Under the pieces are notes generated by a model that did no database searches, was not told the origin of the DNA, and saw only the letters and a program-made list of their open reading frames with translations. From the NCBI GenBank assembly GCA_016217545.1, contig JACRHT010000012.1:1-64000 (forward strand): a stretch of 64,000 nucleotides of DNA. The letters run 5' to 3'. Positions 22,948 through 50,252 of the stretch are shown one piece after another. Position numbers and translations under genes: made by a program. Within the stretch, counting starts at the first letter, position 1. Each line of letters opens with the position of its first letter. This DNA is from Opitutia bacterium. Lineage in GTDB: Bacteria > Verrucomicrobiota > Verrucomicrobiia > Opitutales > Opitutaceae.

Positions 22948-23198
22948 TGCTCGCCGGCGATGCAATGGCCGTGCCTTGATTTTTCGATGCGCGTAAACCG
23001 CTCCCCGCCTGCACTTAAGCACGCTACGTCTTCCGGCCCACTCCAGTTGACCAACCGCTTTTTTCCCACGCCCGGGAATCGCCGCGGGACCGGGGTTAGC
23101 GCAATCGACGCTCTTCGCCAGCGCGCCGCGCGCGCTCGTTTGCCGTCGTTTCTGCAAAAATGTTGAACCAACGCCACGCCGTGGCATACCACCGGCCC
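22948..23198. promoter_or_regulatory. Divergent promoter region of two PEP-CTERM genes
   Basis: This 251-bp spacer separates the divergent starts of the M23 peptidase and the beta-strand-repeat protein and must contain both promoters. I cannot assign -35/-10 boxes with confidence. It has no convincing gene of its own. Confidence 0.5.
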
Positions 23199-26100
23199 AT
23201 GAGACCGGTGATCCGTTTGCTGTGCCGCCTCGCGCCCCTACTCCTGCCAGCCGCCGCTTTGGCGCAAACGACGGTTACCTACACGTGGACAGGCGGCGGA
23301 GCCACTATCCTCTTCAACCAGTTCGCCAACGCCAACGCGAACCTCGGCAGCAATTGGGTCGGCGGCAACGCGCCGGTGTCGAACTCCACCGCAACCGATC
23401 TTGTTTTCGGCGCCAGCCACGGCGTCCCGTCGTCGGACGGCATGGTGAACGTGGACTTCCAGACCAGCATCAACGTCCACGGCATCACCCTGAACACGCC
23501 GGCGCCGACCTACAATTTCGGCTCCGGCTACGGAGCGAACGTCGGCATCGGCACCGGCGGCGTGACGATCAACGGCAGCAATGGCACCGTCACCACGGTC
23601 AGCGCGGGCATTCTGCTCCTCGCGAACCAGACTTGGAACATCTCCGATGCCACCCTCTATGTTCACAGCGCGATCGACGAGGACGACAGCTTCATCTCTC
23701 TGACGAAGGTCGGCGCGGGCAGCCTCGCCCTCTATAACTCCTCCAGCACCTTCTCGGGCGGCCTCGATGTGCAGGCGGGCGCGATTTATCTCAACGGCGG
23801 CTCGACCACCGAAGGCAGCTCCGTGATGCGCGGCCCCGTCGGCACCGGCACGTTGACCCTGCGCGACGGCACCGCCCTGCGCACCGCCCCTTCCACCGAG
23901 ATCGAACTCCACAACGCCATCTCCCTCGGCAACAACGTCACGCTCGGCAACTACTCCTACGACAACGGCATTTCGCTCTACGGCGACATCACGCCCCGGC
24001 AGACCGACACGACCGTCAAGATCGGCGTCGAAGGCGCGCTGTTCATCGCCGGCGCCATCCACAACGCCACCGCGGGAGCGACCTCGATGCGCTTCACCAA
24101 ACCCCTGAACAATTTTTCCGGGGATGGCCAAATTTCGTTCTATCAAGCTTACCAAAATCCCCCGATCGCCGTCCTCACCGGCCAGAACACCTACACCGGC
24201 GGCACGGTCGCCGACGGCGCGGGCGTGATTTTCTACACGCCGGAATCGATCCCAGCCACCGGCTCCATTTCCGCCGTCAACAGCGGCTACATTTCGACCG
24301 GCTTCTCCGGCGGCATGACCACGATCCTGTCCCACATCACCGACAAGCCCGGCTTCAACGGCGCCCTTGGCTTCGACACCAATCCCGACCTGTCCTCCAT
24401 CCCCACGACCTTCGCCGACACCCTCGACCTCAGCGCCTTCAGCGCGGATCACACCCAGTTCATCGGGATCGGTTCGCGCACCTATGCGACGCTCACCGGC
24501 GCGATCACCCCGCCCTCCGGCGGCACCTACATCTTCGGTGGCAGCGACGGCACGCTCTACGTGCAGTCCAACCTCACCCAACCCGTCGGCATCCGCGTCC
24601 AGAGCACCAATCCCTACGACCCGCTCGCCGTCTATTTTCGCGGCAATAACAGCACGGTCGGCGCCGCCACCGCCGCCTCCTCCCTCATCAACGATCGCTC
24701 CATCGTCGTCCTCGATTCCGCGCACGCCCTCCCGGATCTCGGCGCGAACGGCGTGGGCAAGTTCCAGATGGACGACCATGCCTACACCGGGGTCACCGAA
24801 AACACCGGCATCTCGCCCACGCAATTCATCGCGCGGCTCAGCACCTACGCCTCCACCTCGATCCTCGGCTTCGACTCCAGCAGCTCCGATGGCCGCACCA
24901 TCTCCGACACCATCGATTTGTCCGGCTTGGGCTTCCTGTTCCTCGGCACCACTTCGCACGTGCATCTCGCCGGCACGATCAAGGCCCCCGTCGTCGCCGA
25001 GAGCCAGAACTCCGGCCGCCTCTCCGTCACCGGTGTCGGCAACAAATCCTGGCTTACGATCGACAGCCCGCTGCAGGCCGGCAACGTCAACTCCCTCGAG
25101 ATCGGCGGCAACGGCACCACTCCCGTCCAACGCGGCGTCGTCGAACTCACCAGCGGCTCCAGCACCTTCTCCGGCGGCTCCAGCCTCAACAGCGGCTACC
25201 TCCTGCTCGGCGCCAGCTCCACAGCCAACAGCGACGCCATCGTCAGCGGCCCGCTCGGCACCGGCACGCTCAACGTCAACAGCTACTACGCCGAATACAT
25301 GGCCGGCATCGCCACCGCGAGCAACCTCACCCTGCACAACAACATCACCTTCGGCGGCGGCAGCGCGCTGCAATTCGGCGCCTATTCCACCACGAACAAG
25401 GACGACCCGGCCTATCGCGTGCGTTCCTACACGAACAACGGCCTCACCCTGAACGGCAACCTCAGCGGCACGCCGGACGAACTCCGCTTCGTCGGCAACG
25501 GCACCTTCATCCTCAACGGCGACAACCGCTACCTCACCACCTCCGAACTCGAGATCGGCTACGTTAACTACAACAACGCCTCCCTCGACCTCACCGCCTA
25601 CTCCAGGCCGCTCGTCATCGCCGGCACCAACACCGCCCTCGGCTCCGCGAACTCGATGGTCTGCCTCTCCGATGGCGCCGACCTCCAGTTCACCACCTCC
25701 GCCCCGGTCATCGGCAGTATCATGGGCGGCAACCCCGTCTCCTTCGACGGCGGCATCGACCGCTCCTACATCACGCTCGCCGCCGGCTCCACGCTCACCA
25801 TCAACCAATCTCAATCCAGCACCCTCCAGTCCAACATCGTCGGCGGCGTCTCCGATCGCACCTCGTCCAACACCACCGTCATCCCCGTCAGCGCCGCCCT
25901 CGTGAAGAATGGCAATGAGACGCTCACCCTCACCGGCCAGAGCACCTACTCCGGCGGCACCACCATCAACGCCGGCAAAATCGTCGCCGGCTCCAGCACC
26001 ACCTTCGTTTCCGACTCCCTCGTCTCCGGCCCGCTCGGCACCGGCACCGTGACCCTCAACGGCGGACAACTCGGCTTCACCAACGGTGCCACGATCGTCA

Positions 26101-26702
26101 ACCCCATCGTGTTCGGCACGAACGGCGGCACGCTCTCCGGCAACACGACCTTCAACCAGAGCATCACCGTCGGCACCAACATCGTCCTGGCCCCCGGCAA
26201 CTCGCCCGGCACGCTCACCTTCACGAACGCCCTCACGTTCGCGTCGGGCGGCACCGCCAGCTTCGACATCTCCGACTTCGCCAGCTCGGCCGGATCCGGC
26301 TGGGACCAAATCCTCGTCACCAGCCCCGGCACTTTCGCGATCACCGCCACCACGATCAACCCGTTCAACATTCAGATCAACTCGTGGTCCGCCACCAACG
26401 ACGTGCTCGGCGCCCTCACCACCGACTTCTCCTCGCCCGCCTCCATCGCCCTGCTCACCACGCCCGCCGCGATCACCGGCCTCATCGGCGACGGCCAAAC
26501 CGGCACCAGCAACCTCGTGCTGAACGTCAGCAATTTCACCGCCTACCAGGGCGGCTATTTCAGTCTCTCCGTCGGCGGCGCGAACAACACCCAGCTCCTC
26601 CTCAACTTCACGCCCGTCCCCGAGCCGTCCACCTACGCGCTCCTCGGCTTCGGATTGCTTGCGGTCGGCTACGCGGTCCGCCGCCGCGCCAAGCGACCCT
26701 GA
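23199..26702 (+). CDS. PEP-CTERM protein with autotransporter-associated beta-strand repeats
   Basis: A 1167-aa exported protein with a signal peptide (MRPVIRLLCRLAPLLLPAAA, cleavage near LAQ). A long Gly/Thr/Ser/Asn-rich body carries at least four PATR-type units; examples are STFSGGLDVQAGAIYLNGG, LTGQNTYTGGTVADGAG, STFSGGSSLNSGYLLLGAS and LTGQSTYSGGTTINAGKIV. Three units are followed by a GP(V/L)GTGT(L/V) motif, showing internal duplication. The C-terminus is a PEP-CTERM signal (VPEPSTYALLGFGLLAV, then RRRAKRP). It has no autotransporter beta barrel, so it is probably an extracellular beta-helix protein sorted by exosortase. ATG at 23199 is chosen for the signal peptide over the ATG at 23160. 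Confidence 0.85.
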   Translation: MRPVIRLLCRLAPLLLPAAALAQTTVTYTWTGGGATILFNQFANANANLGSNWVGGNAPVSNSTATDLVFGASHGVPSSDGMVNVDFQTSINVHGITLNTPAPTYNFGSGYGANVGIGTGGVTINGSNGTVTTVSAGILLLANQTWNISDATLYVHSAIDEDDSFISLTKVGAGSLALYNSSSTFSGGLDVQAGAIYLNGGSTTEGSSVMRGPVGTGTLTLRDGTALRTAPSTEIELHNAISLGNNVTLGNYSYDNGISLYGDITPRQTDTTVKIGVEGALFIAGAIHNATAGATSMRFTKPLNNFSGDGQISFYQAYQNPPIAVLTGQNTYTGGTVADGAGVIFYTPESIPATGSISAVNSGYISTGFSGGMTTILSHITDKPGFNGALGFDTNPDLSSIPTTFADTLDLSAFSADHTQFIGIGSRTYATLTGAITPPSGGTYIFGGSDGTLYVQSNLTQPVGIRVQSTNPYDPLAVYFRGNNSTVGAATAASSLINDRSIVVLDSAHALPDLGANGVGKFQMDDHAYTGVTENTGISPTQFIARLSTYASTSILGFDSSSSDGRTISDTIDLSGLGFLFLGTTSHVHLAGTIKAPVVAESQNSGRLSVTGVGNKSWLTIDSPLQAGNVNSLEIGGNGTTPVQRGVVELTSGSSTFSGGSSLNSGYLLLGASSTANSDAIVSGPLGTGTLNVNSYYAEYMAGIATASNLTLHNNITFGGGSALQFGAYSTTNKDDPAYRVRSYTNNGLTLNGNLSGTPDELRFVGNGTFILNGDNRYLTTSELEIGYVNYNNASLDLTAYSRPLVIAGTNTALGSANSMVCLSDGADLQFTTSAPVIGSIMGGNPVSFDGGIDRSYITLAAGSTLTINQSQSSTLQSNIVGGVSDRTSSNTTVIPVSAALVKNGNETLTLTGQSTYSGGTTINAGKIVAGSSTTFVSDSLVSGPLGTGTVTLNGGQLGFTNGATIVNPIVFGTNGGTLSGNTTFNQSITVGTNIVLAPGNSPGTLTFTNALTFASGGTASFDISDFASSAGSGWDQILVTSPGTFAITATTINPFNIQINSWSATNDVLGALTTDFSSPASIALLTTPAAITGLIGDGQTGTSNLVLNVSNFTAYQGGYFSLSVGGANNTQLLLNFTPVPEPSTYALLGFGLLAVGYAVRRRAKRP

Positions 26703-26727
26703 GCGCCCCGCGAACTCTCCCCTCTCG

Positions 26728-26759
26728 AAACGGCGGTCCCGCGACCGCCGTTTCTTTTT
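26728..26759 (+). terminator. Strong intrinsic terminator after the beta-repeat gene
   Basis: AAACGGCGGTC (26728-26738) and GACCGCCGTTT (26743-26753) form a perfect 11-bp stem around CCGC, followed by CTTTTT. It lies 26 bp after the stop. Confidence 0.9.
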
Positions 26760-26917
26760 GCCCGCCACCTCCACGTCGGCCCCGAAACACTCGAACGTTC
26801 CTCCGCCGCGCACGGCATTCGCCGCTCATACCCCCCTATTAGCGACTCTGCGATTTCCCCCCCGTTCTTCCGCGGCGGTTGCGCACCGTGCGCACCGCCG
26901 TATGTCATAGCAAAACT

Positions 26918-28192
26918 ATGGCCGCCGCAAACCCCCGCCGCGCTGCCGCTGTCCACGCCGCTCCGCTCCGCATCCTGACTGCGGTGCCGATCTGCGACGG
27001 ACACGACAGCGCCGTCACGACCATCAACATCGAACTCGCCCGCCACGGCATCGAGGTCATCTACCTCGGCTACCACCAATCGGCCACGACCATCGCGCGC
27101 GCCGCCATCCAGGAGGACGCCAACGTCGTCGGCCTCAGTTCCTACAACGGCGGCCACATCGTCTTCTTCAAGGAAGTCGTCGACCGCCTCAAGGCCCTCG
27201 GCTCGGGCGACATTCCGGTCTTCGGCGGCGGCGGCGGCACCATCACGCTCGCCGACGAACGCGTAATGAAGCGCCAGGGCACCGATCGCATCTTCTTCGC
27301 CGGCACGCCGCTCGACGACATCATGGCACTCATCAAGCGCGAGTATGCCCGCGACGCGAAGCCCAACGCCAAATTCAAGGGCGACCGCGCCCTCGCCCGC
27401 GCCATCACGCTCGCCGAAACCGCCATGTTTGAAGGTAGGGCGGGACCGCTGGGCCCGCCGCGAATGGCCAAAACGGCGCGCCCAGCGGTCGCGCCCTACC
27501 CCAAAGCAAAGAGCGCCAAGCGCTCGCATGTCCTCGGCATCGCCGGCCCCGGCGGCGCGGGCAAATCCACGCTCATCGACGAACTCACCTCGCGCTTCCT
27601 GCGCAATGTCCCTCAAGGCCGCATCGCCATCCTCGCCAACGACCCGTCCCACCCCGACACCCACGGCGCCATCCTCGGCGACCGCGTGAGCGCGATCTAC
27701 GCGCAGGACGACCGCGTCTTCTTCCGCTCCATGGCCACGCGGGGCAGTCTCACCGGCCTCAGCGCCGCCGCCCCCGCCGCGATCGACATCCTGAAAAAGT
27801 CCGGCGAATTCGACCTGATTCTGGTCGAGTCCGTCGGCGTCGGCCAGGAGAGCGACCCGTTCGGCGTCTTCGGCGGCAAAAAACTCGTCGACGCCACGCT
27901 CTTCGTCCTCGCGCCCTATTACGGCGGCCGCATCCAGCTGCAGAAGATCGCGCTGCTCAACGGCGCCGACTTCGTCGCGCTGAACAAATGCGACCACCCG
28001 ATGGCCCACACCGCCAAGGCCGAGATCCAAGCCCGCCTCGACTACAACGGCAAAGGCCAAACCCTCCACACCACCACCGCCGCGAAGCACTTCGATCCCG
28101 GCGTCGACTCCCTCTTCCGCGCCCTCGCCGAACGCGGCGGCCTCACCCTCTCCACCGGCGGCGAACCCGCCTGCCAGCTCAAACTGGCATGA
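26918..28192 (+). CDS. B12-binding domain fused to MeaB-type GTPase (split IcmF, small part)
   Basis: A 424-aa protein equal to the N-terminal half of IcmF. Residues about 17-145 are a cobalamin-binding domain with DGHD (27-30; H29 is the lower axial ligand) and IYLGYHQS. Residues about 205-420 are a MeaB-like G domain: Walker A GPGGAGKST (210-218), VESVGVGQESDPFG as the switch region, and NKCD for guanine. It should load and protect the adenosylcobalamin of the mutase encoded next. Between the two domains, residues about 172-195 (EGRAGPLGPPRMAKTARPA then VAPYP) are translated from a 67-bp palindromic repeat (27434-27500), identical over its first 31 bp to an intergenic copy at 28218. ATG at 26918 is chosen; an upstream ATG at 26879 adds nothing conserved. 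Confidence 0.88.
   Translation: MAAANPRRAAAVHAAPLRILTAVPICDGHDSAVTTINIELARHGIEVIYLGYHQSATTIARAAIQEDANVVGLSSYNGGHIVFFKEVVDRLKALGSGDIPVFGGGGGTITLADERVMKRQGTDRIFFAGTPLDDIMALIKREYARDAKPNAKFKGDRALARAITLAETAMFEGRAGPLGPPRMAKTARPAVAPYPKAKSAKRSHVLGIAGPGGAGKSTLIDELTSRFLRNVPQGRIAILANDPSHPDTHGAILGDRVSAIYAQDDRVFFRSMATRGSLTGLSAAAPAAIDILKKSGEFDLILVESVGVGQESDPFGVFGGKKLVDATLFVLAPYYGGRIQLQKIALLNGADFVALNKCDHPMAHTAKAEIQARLDYNGKGQTLHTTTAAKHFDPGVDSLFRALAERGGLTLSTGGEPACQLKLA
27434..27500. repeat. REPIN-like element, family B, in frame inside the GTPase gene
   Basis: GGTAGGGCGGGACCGCTGGG (27434-27453) and the minus-strand reading of the right end, GGTAGGGCGCGACCGCTGGG, match at 19 of 20 positions, giving an inverted pair of GTAG-footed arms. 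It is 67 bp long, the same as the intergenic copy at 28218-28284. It is translated without a stop and falls in the linker between the B12 and G domains. Confidence 0.85.
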
Positions 28193-28217
28193 CCGAACGT
28201 GCGAACGCGTCTTCACT

Positions 28218-28284
28218 GGTAGGGCGGGACCGCTGGGCCCGCCGCGAACGTCGCTAGCGGCCGGCCCAGCGGTCCGGCCCTACC
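28218..28284. repeat. REPIN-like element, family B, intergenic copy
   Basis: The left arm is identical to the in-gene copy for 31 bp (GGTAGGGCGGGACCGCTGGG and onward to CGCGAA). The right arm ends GGTCCGGCCCTACC, the inverted counterpart. It is 67 bp long and lies in the 147-bp gap between the GTPase and mutase genes. Confidence 0.85.
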
Positions 28285-28301
28285 TCCAACGCCGCCCGTC
28301 T

Positions 28302-28339
28302 CTCAACTCTCAGCTCTCAACTCCCAACTTTCTGCCCGC
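28302..28339. repeat. Low-complexity leader before the mutase gene
   Basis: CTCTCAACTCTCAGCTCTCA (from about 28301) continues as ACTCCCAACTTTCTGCCCGC up to the ATG at 28340. It is a relative of the CTAG/CTCT word repeat at 7464-7555. It sits exactly where a ribosome-binding site would be, and no purine-rich Shine-Dalgarno is present. Confidence 0.45.
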
Positions 28340-30172
28340 ATGCCTTCCCTCGGTCGCATCGCCGACTCCGTCGACACCTACAACGCCTTCGTCCGCGCCG
28401 AAGTCGCGCGCGCGCGCACCGACGCCGCCTACGCCGCCGACCTCCGCGCCCGCTGGGAAAAAATCCGCGCGAGCGTCGACCACACCACGTCGCCCACCGG
28501 CACGAAGATCCCGCGCCTCGCGTTGCCCGACACCGACGAGCCCGGCGCGATCGCCGACTACCTGCTCGGCCAGGGACTGCCCGGCTCGTTCCCCTACGCC
28601 ACCGCCGCCTATCGCGAGATGTATCTCGACCGCGAGGTAGAGCGCGTTGACCCCAACGCGCTCAAAGCCGCGACCGCGAGCGAAAGTTCCACGCGCGTTG
28701 AGGTCAACGCGCGCCACCCCAACGCCACCGTCAACGAGGAACCGATGCGCCTGTTCGCCGGCCTCGGCCTCGCGGAGGACACGAACGCGCGTTTCAAATA
28801 CCTTTCGCGAAACCAAAAGAGCATTCGCCTCTCCACCGCGTTCGACGGCCCTACGCTCTACGGCCTAGACTCCGACCACGAAGGCGTGCTCGGCAAGGTC
28901 GGCGAGGGCGGCGTCGCGATCGACACGGTCGAGGACATGCTGCGCCTCTTCGACGGCTTCGACCTCACGCGCAAGGACGCCTCCGTCTCCATGACGATGA
29001 ACGCGCCCGCGCCGATCATCCTCGCAATGTTCATCGCCGCCGCGAAACGCCGCTTCGGCGCCGACTGCGTCCCGAACCTCCGCGGCACCATCCAAGCCGA
29101 CATGCTCAAGGAAGTGCAGGCTCAGAACGAAGTCATCTTCCCCGTCGACGCCTCGCTGCGCTTCCTCGGCGACATGATGGAGTGGTGCGTGCCCAACATG
29201 CCGCGCTGGTATCCGGTCTCGATCTCCGGTTACCACATCGCCGAAGCCGGCGCGACGCCCGTGCAACAGGCCGCGTTCACGCTCTCGAACGGGTTCACCT
29301 ACGTCGAGCTGCTCAAGCAGCGCAGCGCCGACGTGAACGCGTTCGGCCCGCGCCTCTCGTTCTTCTTGGATTGCGGCCTCGACGTCGAATACCTCGTGCT
29401 CGGCCGCGTCTGCCGCCGCATCTGGGCCATCGCGATGCGCGACGTCTTCGGCGCCGACGCGAAGGCGCAAATCCTCAAGCTGCACACGCAGACCTCCGGC
29501 CGCTCGCTCATCGCCGCGGAGTTCCAGAACAATCTCACGCGCACCGCCGTCGAGCTGATGCTGGCCTACATGAACTACACCAATTCGTGCCACTCCAACT
29601 CCGCCGACGAGCCGTTCACCACGCCGACCGAGAAATACGCGCTCCTCGCCTCGCACGGCCAGTCGATCATCCTCGAGGAGTCCGGCCTCTTCAAACACAT
29701 GATGAACATGTTCGGCGGCGCGCCCGGTCTGCTCGCGCTCGAGCGCCAAGTCGAGAAGGGCATCCTCGATGTCTTCCGCGAGATGGACACGCTCGGCGGC
29801 GTCATCGCCGCGATGGAGCAGCGCTACCAGCGCAGCAAGATCCAGGAAGCCGGCCACGCCTATGAGAAACAGATCTACTCGAACCAGCGCCCGATCATCG
29901 GCCTCAACAAATACGTTTCCGAGGAAGCCCACCCGAACGTCCCCCTCGCCCGCACACCGCCGCGCAAACAGCGCCTGCAAGTCGAGCGCCTGAAAGCCTT
30001 CAAAAAGAAAAACGCGAAGAAGGCGCCGGACGCGCTGCAGAAATTGGAGAACGTCGCCCGCAACGGCGGCAACGTTTTCGGCGAACTCGTGAACACCGTC
30101 GAAGTTTGCTCCCTCGGCCAAATCACGGCATGTCTCACCGGCGTGGTCGGGAAATTCCGGCCGATGGTATGA
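28340..30172 (+). CDS. Acyl-CoA mutase large subunit, isobutyryl-CoA (IcmF) type
   Basis: A 610-aa TIM-barrel subunit of an adenosylcobalamin-dependent carbon-skeleton mutase, the counterpart of the C-terminal half of IcmF. Conserved stretches are LSTAFDGPTLYGLDSDH, SMTMNAPAPIILAMF, TIQADMLKEVQAQN and SISGYHIAEAGATPVQQAAF. Two specificity positions point to isobutyryl-CoA/butyryl-CoA rather than methylmalonyl-CoA: F139 in MRLFAG (Tyr in methylmalonyl-CoA mutase) and Q262 in KEVQAQN (Arg there). Residues 100-127 are encoded by an in-frame palindromic repeat (28636-28718) and interrupt the segment between FPYATAAYREMY and EEPMRLFAG, which is short in the family. The stop overlaps the next start (ATGA). 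Confidence 0.88.
   Translation: MPSLGRIADSVDTYNAFVRAEVARARTDAAYAADLRARWEKIRASVDHTTSPTGTKIPRLALPDTDEPGAIADYLLGQGLPGSFPYATAAYREMYLDREVERVDPNALKAATASESSTRVEVNARHPNATVNEEPMRLFAGLGLAEDTNARFKYLSRNQKSIRLSTAFDGPTLYGLDSDHEGVLGKVGEGGVAIDTVEDMLRLFDGFDLTRKDASVSMTMNAPAPIILAMFIAAAKRRFGADCVPNLRGTIQADMLKEVQAQNEVIFPVDASLRFLGDMMEWCVPNMPRWYPVSISGYHIAEAGATPVQQAAFTLSNGFTYVELLKQRSADVNAFGPRLSFFLDCGLDVEYLVLGRVCRRIWAIAMRDVFGADAKAQILKLHTQTSGRSLIAAEFQNNLTRTAVELMLAYMNYTNSCHSNSADEPFTTPTEKYALLASHGQSIILEESGLFKHMMNMFGGAPGLLALERQVEKGILDVFREMDTLGGVIAAMEQRYQRSKIQEAGHAYEKQIYSNQRPIIGLNKYVSEEAHPNVPLARTPPRKQRLQVERLKAFKKKNAKKAPDALQKLENVARNGGNVFGELVNTVEVCSLGQITACLTGVVGKFRPMV
28636..28718. repeat. REPIN-like element, family C, in frame inside the mutase gene
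   Basis: GGTAGAGCGCGTTGACCCCA (28636-28655, then ACGCGC) and the minus-strand reading of the right end, GGTGGCGCGCGTTGACCTCA (then ACGCGC), match at 23 of 26 positions. Each arm is itself a hairpin (GCGCGTTGA...TCAACGCGC). The 83-bp element adds about 28 residues to the mutase. Confidence 0.8.
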
Positions 30173-30765
30173 ATATGAAATCTATTCTCGCAGCGTTCTT
30201 CGCCATTGTGTCGGTGCTCGCCGCGGTCGCTGGGCAGCCGAAGAATGTCATGGAGCTCTTCGGTGGTGCTGAGGCGATGGCAGTGCTTCGCACCGCAACA
30301 CGTGTTGAAGCCTGCTTTCTAAAACGGTCCGGAACTCAGGGAGACTGGAAATGGGACGAGACCCCCTACGCGCTGCTATCTGATGCGGGAGCGGCGAGGT
30401 TGCGCAAGTTGCTCCTCGATGAGGCAACCTATGCATGGGACGAAACGTCGGCTGGGAGCTCATACTCGCACAACATCTCCGTCAGATTCACACAAGGAGG
30501 GCACACTCTCAAAATCCTGTTCCTGCTAGATAGCGACTATCTCGCAATCTCGTATGATGGCGCCTGGCGCCAATGGGGTGAAGAATACCGGAAACGGAGC
30601 GAGGAATTTTTCTCCATCTTCGAGAGCGAACTTTCCCACCTTTCCCTCTTCGCTGAGATCCGAAATGAAAAGGCCGCTCGTGAGGCAGAACGCGCAAAGT
30701 ATCGGAAACTCGAACAAGAGGCGCTGGCGAGGGATAGAAAACTGAAGGCAGAAACCAACAAGTGA
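30169..30765 (+). CDS. Small exported protein of unknown function, atypical composition
   Basis: A 198-aa protein with an N-terminal signal peptide (MNMKSILAAFFAIVSVLAAV, cleavage near VAG), a central domain (about 30-150) with SHNISVRFTQGGHTLKILFL and DYLAISYDGAWRQWGEEY, and a charged C-terminal coiled coil (EIRNEKAAREAERAKYRKLE). I recognise no family. It is wedged between mutase and carboxyltransferase with an ATGA overlap at its start and a GTGA overlap at its end. Yet its codons (many GAT, TAT, AAA, CTA, TCT) are visibly more AT-rich than those of its neighbours, suggesting later acquisition. A second ATG at 30175 is possible. Whether it has a role in the acyl-CoA pathway is unknown. Confidence 0.7.
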   Translation: MNMKSILAAFFAIVSVLAAVAGQPKNVMELFGGAEAMAVLRTATRVEACFLKRSGTQGDWKWDETPYALLSDAGAARLRKLLLDEATYAWDETSAGSSYSHNISVRFTQGGHTLKILFLLDSDYLAISYDGAWRQWGEEYRKRSEEFFSIFESELSHLSLFAEIRNEKAAREAERAKYRKLEQEALARDRKLKAETNK

Positions 30766-32399
30766 AACCCACCACCCCTTCCACCACCCCCGCCCTCCTC
30801 GACCGCTGCAATGAAATCGCGCAGCAGGAAGCCCAGCTCCGCGAGGGCGGCGGCGCGGCCGGGCAGGAGCGCCAGCACAAGCTCGGGCGTCTCTTCGTCC
30901 GCGAGCGCATCGCGGCGCTGATCGATTCGCCGGAGTCGTGGGTCGAGGTCGGTCTCTGGGCGGCGCACGGGATGTATCGCGAGTGGGGCGCGTTCCCCGG
31001 CGCGGGCGTCGTCACCGGCATCGGCGACATCGCCGGCCATCCGTGCATGATCGTCGCCAACGACGCCACCGTGAAGGCCGGTGCGTTCGTCCCGATGACG
31101 TGCAAGAAAGTCCTCCGCGCGCAGCGCATCGCCTTCGAGTGCAACCTGCCGCTCGTCTACCTCGTGGACTCGTCCGGCGTGTTCCTGCCGATGCAGGACG
31201 AAATTTTTCCCGACGAGGACGACTTCGGCCGCATCTTCCGCAACAACGCGGTCATCTCCGCCGCCGGCATCCCGCAATACGCCGCCATCATGGGCAACTG
31301 CGTCGCGGGCGGCGCGTATCTGCCCGTGCTCTGCGACAAGATCCTCATGACCGAGGGCAGCGGCCTCTACCTCGCCGGCCCGCAGCTCGTGAAGGCCGCC
31401 ATCGGCCAGGAAACCGACACCGAGACGCTCGGCGGCGCCGCGATGCACGCGGAGATTTCCGGCACGGTGGATTTCAAGGAGAAGGACGACCCCGCGGCGC
31501 TGAAGCGGCTGCGCTCGCTGATCGGACTCCTGCCGGCGGAACCTGTAGCCGGGCTCGCTGAGCCCGGCCCGGGGTCAGCGACCCCGGCTACAGAATTCCC
31601 CGCCTCGAAGATTTATGAACTGGTGAGTATCGACGGCCGCAAGGAATACGACGTGCGCGACGTCATCCGCTGCCTCGTCGACGCCGGCTCGCTCGATGAA
31701 TACAAGGCCGACTACGGCAAATCGATCGTCTGCGCCTTCGCGCGGCTCGGCGGACGCCCGATCGGCATCGTCGCGAACCAGCGCATGCGCGTGCAGTCGA
31801 AGGCCGCGGGCGCGGCCGGACTGCAGATGCCGGGCGTCATCTACGCCGACAGCGCCGACAAGGGCGCGCGCTTCATCATGGACTGCAACCAGACGCGCGT
31901 GCCGCTGCTGTTCCTGCAGGACGTGTCGGGCTTCATGGTCGGCAAGGACGCCGAGCAGAGCGGCATCATTCGCAGCGGCGCGAAGATGGTGAACGCACTC
32001 AGCAACTCCACCGTGCCGAAGATCACCGTCATCACCGGCGGCTCGTTCGGCGCCGGCAACTACGCGATGTGCGGCAAGGCCTTCGACCCGCGCTTCATAT
32101 TCTCGTGGCCGCACGGCAAATACGCCGTGATGGGCGCCGCGCAGGCCAGCGACGTCGTGTTCAACATCCTCGCCAAGTCCTCGAAGCAGGAGCGCACGAA
32201 GGAGGAACTCGACGCGCTGCGCGCGCAGGTGAAGGCCGGCTACGTCGAGCAAACCGACATCCGCTACGGCGCCGCGCGCGGCTGGGTCGACGCGCTCATC
32301 CAACCGCACCAGACCCGCGAAGTGCTCCTCCGCGCCTTCGCCCTCGCCTGTCGTCCGGCCCCGAGCGCGAATTTCCACACCGGCGTGTTGCAGGTTTGA
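30762..32399 (+). CDS. Biotin-dependent acyl-CoA carboxylase, carboxyltransferase subunit
   Basis: A 545-aa carboxyltransferase of the methylcrotonyl/propionyl-CoA carboxylase beta family. The N-terminal acyl-CoA domain has LVYLVDSSGVFLPMQDEIFP and IMGNCVAGGAYLPVLCD with LAGPQLVKAAIG. The C-terminal carboxybiotin domain has PLLFLQDVSGFMVGKDAEQS and ITGGSFGAGNYAMCGKAFDP. The VDSSGVFLPMQDE stretch is closest to methylcrotonyl-CoA carboxylases, but the substrate is not certain. No biotin carboxylase or carrier gene is in the window. It starts with GTG at 30762, overlapping the previous stop. Residues about 261-277, between LLPAE and FPASKIYEL, come from an in-frame palindromic repeat (31543-31593). 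Confidence 0.88.
   Translation: MKPTTPSTTPALLDRCNEIAQQEAQLREGGGAAGQERQHKLGRLFVRERIAALIDSPESWVEVGLWAAHGMYREWGAFPGAGVVTGIGDIAGHPCMIVANDATVKAGAFVPMTCKKVLRAQRIAFECNLPLVYLVDSSGVFLPMQDEIFPDEDDFGRIFRNNAVISAAGIPQYAAIMGNCVAGGAYLPVLCDKILMTEGSGLYLAGPQLVKAAIGQETDTETLGGAAMHAEISGTVDFKEKDDPAALKRLRSLIGLLPAEPVAGLAEPGPGSATPATEFPASKIYELVSIDGRKEYDVRDVIRCLVDAGSLDEYKADYGKSIVCAFARLGGRPIGIVANQRMRVQSKAAGAAGLQMPGVIYADSADKGARFIMDCNQTRVPLLFLQDVSGFMVGKDAEQSGIIRSGAKMVNALSNSTVPKITVITGGSFGAGNYAMCGKAFDPRFIFSWPHGKYAVMGAAQASDVVFNILAKSSKQERTKEELDALRAQVKAGYVEQTDIRYGAARGWVDALIQPHQTREVLLRAFALACRPAPSANFHTGVLQV
31543..31593. repeat. REPIN-like element, family D, in frame inside the carboxyltransferase gene
   Basis: CTGTAGCCGGGCTCGCTGAG (31543-31562) and the minus-strand reading of the right end, CTGTAGCCGGGGTCGCTGAC, match at 18 of 20 positions; both start with a GTAG foot. 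The element is 51 bp, exactly 17 codons, and is read as an Ala/Pro/Gly-rich linker between the two halves of the enzyme. Confidence 0.85.
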
Positions 32400-32435
32400 G
32401 GGAGGGTCCGCGTCCTCGCGGGCCGTGTGCAAGGA

Positions 32436-32510
32436 GGCGCGAGCGAGCTCGCTCGCCTACCTTGCTGCGGGTATTTGCGGTCTTTCGTAGGCGGCGAGCT
32501 TGCTCGCGCC
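32436..32510. repeat. REP-like pair with facing GTAG feet, family E
   Basis: A minus-oriented REP-like unit (32436-32460, reading GTAGGCGAGCGAGCTCGCTC then GCGCC on the minus strand) and a plus-oriented one (32487-32510, GTAGGCGGCGAGCTTGCTCG then CGCC) share the same stem. Here the GTAG feet face each other across a 26-bp spacer, the opposite order to the other elements in this window. Confidence 0.7.
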
Positions 32511-32532
32511 GCTTTGTGCCCGCATCTGCTCC

Positions 32533-50156: not shown

Positions 50157-50252
50157 GTAGGCGCCGGTCTTCGACCGGCCTCGCTCCGCCAGCATTCGCG
50201 GCTCTGTGGCGCGAAAGTGAATTCACCTTGGCCGGTCGAAGACCGGCGCTAC
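50157..50252. repeat. REPIN-like element, family F, between pseudopilin and argF
   Basis: The left arm GTAGGCGCCGGTCTTCGACC (50157-50176, then GGCC) and the minus-strand reading of the right arm, GTAGCGCCGGTCTTCGACCG (then GCC), differ by one base. Each arm holds a hairpin GCCGGTC-TTC-GACCGGC. It fills the space between two convergent genes and might also act in termination. Confidence 0.85.

Follow-up and report, generated by a model that had tools for sequence, protein, structure and literature searches.

The DNA analysed here, hereafter the window, is a stretch of 64,000 nucleotides from an Opitutia bacterium (assembly GCA_016217545.1, contig JACRHT010000012.1, positions 1 to 64,000), in which three neighbouring acyl-CoA genes each contain a palindromic repeat that is read in frame. 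The genome holding the window comprises 5.09 Mb in 17 contigs, and the closest named relatives found are Opitutaceae, metagenome-assembled genomes of Lacunisphaera sp. among them. All three genes lie on the forward strand. The first (26918-28192) encodes a GTPase with a B12-binding domain (PF02310, residues 19-127) and a MeaB-type G domain (PF03308, residues 198-381); its length of 424 amino acids is counted from the ATG at 26918, the mechanical start of the open reading frame (ORF) being a TTG at 26879. The second (28340-30172) encodes an acyl-CoA mutase of 610 amino acids (MM_CoA_mutase, PF01642, residues 133-604), for which the top Protein Data Bank (PDB) matches are fused isobutyryl-CoA mutase. 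The third (30762-32399) encodes a carboxyltransferase of the beta type, 545 amino acids in length (PF01039, residues 37-529), with AccD1, MCC beta and PccB as PDB homologues.

Element A (27434-27500, forward strand) is an inverted dimer with arms at 27434-27460 and 27474-27500 that are 93% complementary and carry a GTAG foot at both ends. When translated it forms residues 173-194 of the GTPase, between the B12-binding and MeaB domains. Element B (28636-28718, forward strand), with arms at 28636-28661 and 28693-28718 that are 88% complementary, forms residues 100-126 of the mutase, upstream of the MM_CoA_mutase match; its left foot is GTAG and its right foot is of the GTGG type. Element C is a compact dimer, TGTAGCC...GGCTACA, with a foot-to-foot core at 31544-31592 (forward strand) and GTAG at both ends; it lies within a wider inverted repeat (31534-31602, 82% complementary) and forms residues 262-277 of the carboxyltransferase, inside the Carboxyl_trans domain. 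The original prediction had placed GTAG-footed palindromes at these three sites, each read through without a stop, and the inverted repeats and the stop-free passage through each host ORF are confirmed. GTAG-type feet at both ends hold for A and C, and for B at the left end only. The locations also stand, with slightly different sizes: about 22 residues for A (about 24 had been claimed), about 27 for B (about 28) and 16-17 for C (17).

Residue F139 of the mutase is invariant in 22 aligned mutases. The structure model of this protein has a mean predicted local distance difference test (pLDDT) score of 63.9, with residues 85-142 below 50, and says nothing certain about insert B, while the carboxyltransferase model (mean pLDDT 37.6) is too poor for use. 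An RNA family was rejected as the identity of the elements, as Rfam gave no match at the gathering threshold in 26500-32500. Inverted-repeat listing and family search also yielded a second family A dimer (28218-28284, forward strand), missing from the original prediction, which is intergenic between the GTPase and mutase genes. Between this copy and the mutase start sits a heptamer array (28297-28332, forward strand) with a unit like CTCAACT and a best period at lag 7.

A, B and C belong to three separate dispersed repeat families, as had been proposed, with at least 80, 64 and 81 matches, respectively, over both strands of the genome; these are lower bounds because 40 candidates were scored per search, from 97 (A), 100 (B) and 69 (C). 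The arm families thus recur genome-wide, which was the test set in advance, and other in-gene copies were found. The elements have the features of REPINs, dimers of repetitive extragenic palindromic (REP) sequences: inverted GTAG-type hairpin pairs, with hairpin pairing counted for C only, and dispersal in many copies. A sample of 464 kb, made up of the window and 400 kb drawn at even intervals, contained 17 GTAG-footed dimers, compared with 0-12 (mean 3.8) for the 11 other words of the same four letters; the higher control words (TAGG 12, GGTA 8, AGGT 7) probably pick up the same elements in a shifted reading. Dispersed copies and this foot-word control rule out chance palindromes. The genome contains ten matches to PF01797, the family of the REP-associated tyrosine transposases (RAYTs). 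Family C REPs lie on both sides of one RAYT gene (L088; L and G numbers are handles for loci and genomes) and family A REPs on both sides of another (L090), and both proteins score above the cut-off of NF047646 (REP-associated tyrosine transposase). Among the other PF01797 loci, L091 has GTAGGAGCCTGCTTGCAGGCGA repeats around it, and L095 has a GTAGGGCGAGTCGTCCCC repeat at one side.

Gene context was scored with a codon model trained on the ORFs of the window and applied to 240-nt flanks. The model misses sites close to gene ends. "Not flagged" is not equivalent to intergenic, as only 1007 of 1840 random sites (55%) in the 400-kb sample were flagged. The threshold was 12 for copies of A, B and C and for the foot-word sample, and 10 for relatives and random sites; no exact-feet copy in this genome switches class between the two. 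Families A and B seem to lie mostly outside genes, with 3/26 and 2/23 copies flagged as in-frame coding, one of the latter being doubtful (L036, flagged with an ORF that begins 17 nt upstream). Outside the window, 2/13 GTAG-footed dimers of the foot-word sample were flagged in frame in genes.

REPs are mostly intergenic according to the available text of two reports (PMC8266576; PMC3733652), a habit reflected in the name REP and not a matter of structure; A, B and the long form of C seem to follow it, and compact C, which in this genome is almost confined to genes, does not. With the compact query, 20/23 copies of family C were flagged as in-frame coding. A pattern search with exact feet found 20 compact dimers of 47-51 nt and 15 dimers with longer spacers. 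Of the former, 17/20 were flagged, or 19/20 once ORF and Pfam evidence was added (for L061 and L076), and six further compact copies with one imperfect foot were all flagged. Overall, the codon model flags 23 of 26 compact copies, and the added evidence places 25 of 26 in genes, in 21 different genes; L065 is the sole copy without coding context. Four genes carry two compact copies at different sites: a CobW-type gene (L070/L071), a 2-oxoacid dehydrogenase fusion (L060/L074), RecD2 (L077/L081) and PurL (L078/L084). The hosts also include PurK, NuoG, isocitrate dehydrogenase, a class I tRNA synthetase, E2 and E3; their ORFs are open and most have Pfam domains, L177 having none. With 25 in-gene compact copies in the genome, chance may account for the clustering of three in-gene elements in 4.2 kb.

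The long form of C, at 77-84 nt, was flagged in genes in none of 11 exact-feet copies (nine of 77 nt, one of 82 and one of 84) and in none of 14 when three with imperfect feet are included. Among dimers of intermediate length, the 63- and 65-nt copies are in genes and the 59- and 60-nt copies are not. The flagged fractions of the exact-feet compact (17/20) and long (0/11) copies differ strongly (Fisher p = 4e-6), and the compact fraction exceeds the random-site rate of 0.55 (p = 0.005). The two forms also differ in divergence, with 1.84-2.14 differences per 23 nt in the arms of compact copies (19 of the 20 with exact feet) and 0.44-0.83 per 23 nt in those of the 77-nt copies (nine copies).

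In the 18 copies that measure exactly 47 nt (exact feet in 13, an imperfect right foot in five), each half pairs as its own 8-bp hairpin, with 99.0% of cells paired and six pairs changed on both sides. Shuffled alignments scored as high in 0/500 cases for four of five measures and in 7/500 for the number of pair types, counts that are not probabilities because the copies are related. The compact unit joins two different REP hairpins as a dimer, and either of them may come first. One long cruciform was rejected as the conserved structure, since column pair 10/38 is mismatched in 17/18 copies and half-to-half pairing is worse than shuffled. In the mutase insert, at 28640-28661, the stem of the left arm has a compensated change relative to L097, from GTT/AAC to GCT/AGC, as if the hairpin were kept or repaired inside the gene.

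Every in-gene compact copy is read in one frame, VAGxxxPGPGSxxPAT with variants (23 + 3 copies read), the right arm being shifted by one in the two PurL copies. With both strands of the 20 exact-feet copies read, this frame is open in 40/40 readings, the next in 0/40 and the third in 14/40, such that one frame is always closed by TAG, one is often closed by TGA and one is always open. None of the 25 in-gene copies departs from frame offset 0, though offset 2 is open in 14/40 readings; for this reason, stops do not fully explain the use of a single frame. The VAG frame is also open on both strands in all nine 77-nt copies, whose length modulo 3 equals that of the 47-nt form. Frame alone therefore cannot explain the split between compact and long copies, and a frame filter is rejected as the sole cause of the presence of C in genes.

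By a stricter pattern, compact C-type dimers are present in 11 of 61 genomes of the family, this one included, and are most numerous in G015 (45), G039 (15) and G042 (11). Copies from six other genomes were scored with the codon model of this genome, under which random sites there were flagged at a similar rate (53-75%). Those flagged were 2/11 in G042, 3/15 in G039, 2 of the first 9 of 45 in G015, 3/4 in G045, 1/1 in G052 and 0/1 in G059 (one of two copies examined in each of the last two); copies of G032, G038, G071 and G077 were left out of this count. In G042, G039 and G015, three other genera, the copies are mostly non-genic (7/35 flagged versus 17/20 here, p = 3e-6), and all six together give 11/41 (Fisher p = 2e-5 versus this genome). 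The value of 11/41 fits random insertion with a frame filter (35% expected, p = 0.33), and 17/20 does not (p = 8e-6). Because the compact arms are more diverged and compact copies elsewhere are mostly not in genes, these comparisons of sequence suggest that the compact form is an older wave in this genome, of which the intergenic copies would have been lost and the in-gene copies kept.

The same linkers and loops hold other occupants in homologous genes, several of them classed by eye. Among 18 Opitutaceae carboxyltransferases (L375, L377 and L379, which repeat L105, L101 and L103, were left out), the linker is filled by a palindromic dimer in ten (eight detected by script and two by eye) and by a heptamer array only in two (L374 and L101), and is short and plain in six (L380-L385). 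The palindromes are compact C in the window, a GTGG-footed palindrome in L373 and a B-like palindrome with GTGG feet in L378 (both by eye), GTAGGGCGAGT/GCGT-type palindromes in L096, L099, L103 and L105, and GTAGGAGGGGCTTTA-type palindromes in L097, L376 and L104. The eight script-detected dimers, that of the window included, all start at query residues 261-264, within the same four codons, and the script detected no dimer starting elsewhere in these genes across the 18 species. On the gene tree, Fitch parsimony counts eight changes of occupant state, and sister pairs with different occupants include L374/L105 (support 100) and L376/L103 (support 95). Furthermore, a three-gene tree of eight genomes joins L097 and L099 as sisters at 100, and these two have different occupants in the carboxyltransferase.

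The other two linkers of the cluster vary likewise. In the GTPase, element A is found in the window and L096, other palindromes in L098 (by eye), L103 and L107, and heptamer arrays in L097, L099 and L101. A B-like insert in the mutase loop is common to the window and L096-L099, and this loop, with 36 residues in the window, has 6-7 residues in L100, L102, L103 and L105-L107; a short, unrelated sequence of 10-14 residues is present in L104 and L101. Supports in the mutase tree are 99 for L097/L099, 99 for L103/L107 and 93 for L103/L106/L107, and otherwise weak. The comparison with homologues proposed in the original prediction thus found the segments missing from these six short-looped mutases and from 6/18 carboxyltransferases, and its suggestion that such elements can seed new linkers is supported; the presence of other palindromes at the same linkers in relatives goes beyond it.

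Loops of other compact C hosts were compared in the same way. The isocitrate dehydrogenase copy aligns to a 14-residue gap in PDB 1ITW, and among 19 homologous rows covering this loop (two from G002) none has C, while L203 and L205 have heptamer arrays. The E3 copy is common to the congener G008, a C dimer occupies the same loop in G015 (L227), and L221 has a heptamer array in this loop, L220 a doubtful one. The SpoU methylase copy is also common to G008, with a short loop in three others. A different palindrome fills the NnrDE loop in G008. One RecD2 loop in G006 consists of two palindromes and arrays (by eye), and the other is filled by arrays in G002, G006, G007 and G012. For PurK and the tRNA synthetase, four congeners each were found, and all of them have a short loop. 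Target-site duplications, a check also proposed in the original prediction, were not found by eye in the homologues of these seven host gene families, nor was an exact junction; no clean empty site can be resolved, since even congeners have loops of unlike length and sequence.

Degenerate arrays that repeat every 7 bases with a changing unit (CTCAACT, GTCACTC, TCAAGTX, ATCCAGA, GCCCATC) occupy the same protein loops as REPINs; examples are 28297-28332 of the window, L374, L101, L203, L205 and L309. Lag 7 is the best period in 16 of 17 stretches, a descriptive figure since the stretches were hand-picked. In the isocitrate dehydrogenase L067, around residues 222-233, a second, half-length C-like stretch (AVAGVADPG) lies opposite a 7-residue gap in PDB 1ITW and is perhaps a single REP read in frame.

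The segments A, B and C are thus likely to be REPINs that landed in genes, survived in frame in tolerant loops, and had their loops refilled between species. The repeat families, their frames, the empty or differently filled homologous loops and the RAYT genes beside A and C REPs are observed; from them we infer the transposition route, survival by selection, shielding, tolerance and the making of proteins with the segments. RAYT (TnpA-REP, Y1) transposases would probably spread these non-autonomous GTAG hairpin dimers as single-stranded DNA, and the dimers would land in genes as well as intergenically. Survival in a gene would require a palindrome free of stops in the host frame, a net length that keeps the frame and a tolerant loop, and translation would then turn the survivor into a linker of about 16-28 residues. 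In-gene copies would be shielded from loss, because a deletion must keep the frame too, and may in this way outlast intergenic copies. Other REPIN families and heptamer arrays would come to fill the few tolerant loops time and again, and linkers would therefore turn over between species.

A further proposition, offered as a possibility rather than an expectation, is that coding sequence is the refuge of a dying family, with compact C nearly gone from the intergenic DNA of this genome and surviving almost only as translated linkers, and that loops of housekeeping enzymes are standing docks where REPIN families and arrays replace one another between sister species. If so, mobile repeats would be the main force behind the evolution of linkers in this bacterial family. 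Protein linkers here seem to be rewritten again and again by mobile DNA, and the insertions would form a natural linker-scanning experiment that marks, across many species together, the loops of essential enzymes able to take up 16-28 additional residues. They would also offer a measurable route from selfish DNA to protein sequence, with REPIN families as donors, orthologous loops as recipients and turnover read on a tree. In addition, fading repeat families may be readable from the proteins they leave behind.

Several results weigh against in-frame survival and refilling as set out above. The gene bias of compact C is not general, given 11/41 flagged in the six other genomes. Long C is absent from genes (0/11) despite its open frame, an outcome with a chance of about 0.02 if one frame in three is tolerated. 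The two PurL copies, one nucleotide longer than most, are still in frame and need local compensation. No family B repeat was found next to the ten PF01797 loci when up to four mismatches were allowed. The net length relative to congeners, counted by hand, is +10 to +22 residues and not one element length, and as no junction was found, insertion is deduced from repeat families and homologues. In the carboxyltransferase tree, the pair of the window and L373 is supported at 75, and many of the other nodes stay below 60; in addition, this tree alone does not join L097 and L099, unlike the three-gene tree. Both the survival of REPINs in tolerant loops and the refuge proposition weigh slightly less because stops do not fully close the other frames and in-gene copies are frequent in G045.

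The reuse of loops could instead reflect targeting and not tolerance alone, if RAYTs prefer existing REP hairpins or heptamer arrays, such that an occupied loop is a landing site where families replace one another. The start of the carboxyltransferase palindromes at the same four codons, the different families in sister species, and loops that consist of a palindrome followed by a heptamer array or of two palindromes (L096, L373 and L309, by eye) would all fit such docking. Against this stand the six carboxyltransferases outside the element-bearing clade, which have short linkers at that place, and the isocitrate dehydrogenase and PurK loops, which are short in nearly all congeners seen; because of these short homologues, an earlier repeat is not required for landing. 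Moreover, no remnant of one family inside another was noticed, although no systematic search for such remnants was made, and docking is considered rather unlikely.

It is improbable that the peptides, rich in proline, glycine and alanine, were kept because a flexible linker helps multi-domain enzymes, with the elements supplying the peptide. Several C copies do lie between annotated domains (NnrDE, E2, SpoU methylase, RecD2), the E3 and SpoU copies are common to a congener, the mutase insert is common to five genomes, and the second open frame goes unused by all 25 in-gene copies. However, the sequence and family of the insert vary between close species, many homologues have a short loop, and some copies, such as that of isocitrate dehydrogenase, lie inside one domain. 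Template-switch correction can perfect stems, and the compensated stem change between the window and L097 would fit a non-mobile origin, with GC-rich coding palindromes arising by chance or by such correction within old linkers. The occurrence of the same sequences at many unrelated places, the RAYT genes beside A and C REPs, and the homologues that lack the segments make this origin highly improbable, and landing of REPINs with survival in tolerant loops remains the preferred account.

In-gene GTAG dimers are a known kind of element, because REPs have been reported inside genes in several species, those of the GTAG type most of all in Opitutus terrae (Di Nocera et al. 2013, PMC3733652); as in that organism, the dimers described here are translated in genes of a verrucomicrobial genome. 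The presence of three families in one cluster stands, and the judgement in the original prediction that it is unusual is too strong in view of that report. Its available text also suggests that linkers and loops tolerate in-gene REPs, describes different REPs at about the same site in recB of two Xanthomonas, and gives GTAG-17 dimers in O. terrae with partners only 1-2 bp apart, a spacing that fits most compact C copies (PMC3733652). It differs from the present case, as far as that text goes, in one linker being filled here by several families across many species and in the gene-biased survival of one form.

As in REPINs with their RAYTs (Bertels and Rainey 2011, PMC3116915), the dimers are inverted and present in many copies, and families A and C are associated with a RAYT, an enzyme that cuts and joins single-stranded REP DNA in vitro according to the part of the report available (PMC8266576). 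Rickettsia palindromic elements, as described in the available text of PMC3733652, also lie in frame in genes likely encoding functional proteins; the likeness lies in that description, a palindrome in frame inside an intact gene, and the phylum is different. Enterobacterial RU elements are likewise small mobile repeats readable as peptide inside genes, but in the portion of that source available they resemble miniature inverted-repeat transposable elements and are 103-168 bp in length, unlike the GTAG hairpin dimers here (PMC2759123). Occupant turnover at one linker and gene-biased survival appear to be new. Open-licence literature, by titles and the starts of abstracts, contained no report of a linker whose occupants turn over among several species, nor of a gene-biased REP form, and the open-licence search gave nothing on heptanucleotide repeat arrays in Verrucomicrobia or on repetitive extragenic palindromic sequences in Opitutaceae.

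Upstream of the cluster lies an autotransporter-like ORF (23160-26702, 1180 amino acids) with a PEP-CTERM-like tail, a label given by reading the sequence only. Two more inverted repeats in the window have counterparts at RAYT loci. One, at 32430-32516, lies just 3' of the carboxyltransferase gene, and similar repeats (2-4 mismatches to the search word) flank the RAYT in L089. The other, at 50161-50249, is a perfect inverted repeat, GCGCCGGTCTTCGACCGGCC, with 49 nt between its arms, and the RAYT match in L087 has the same hairpin on either side.

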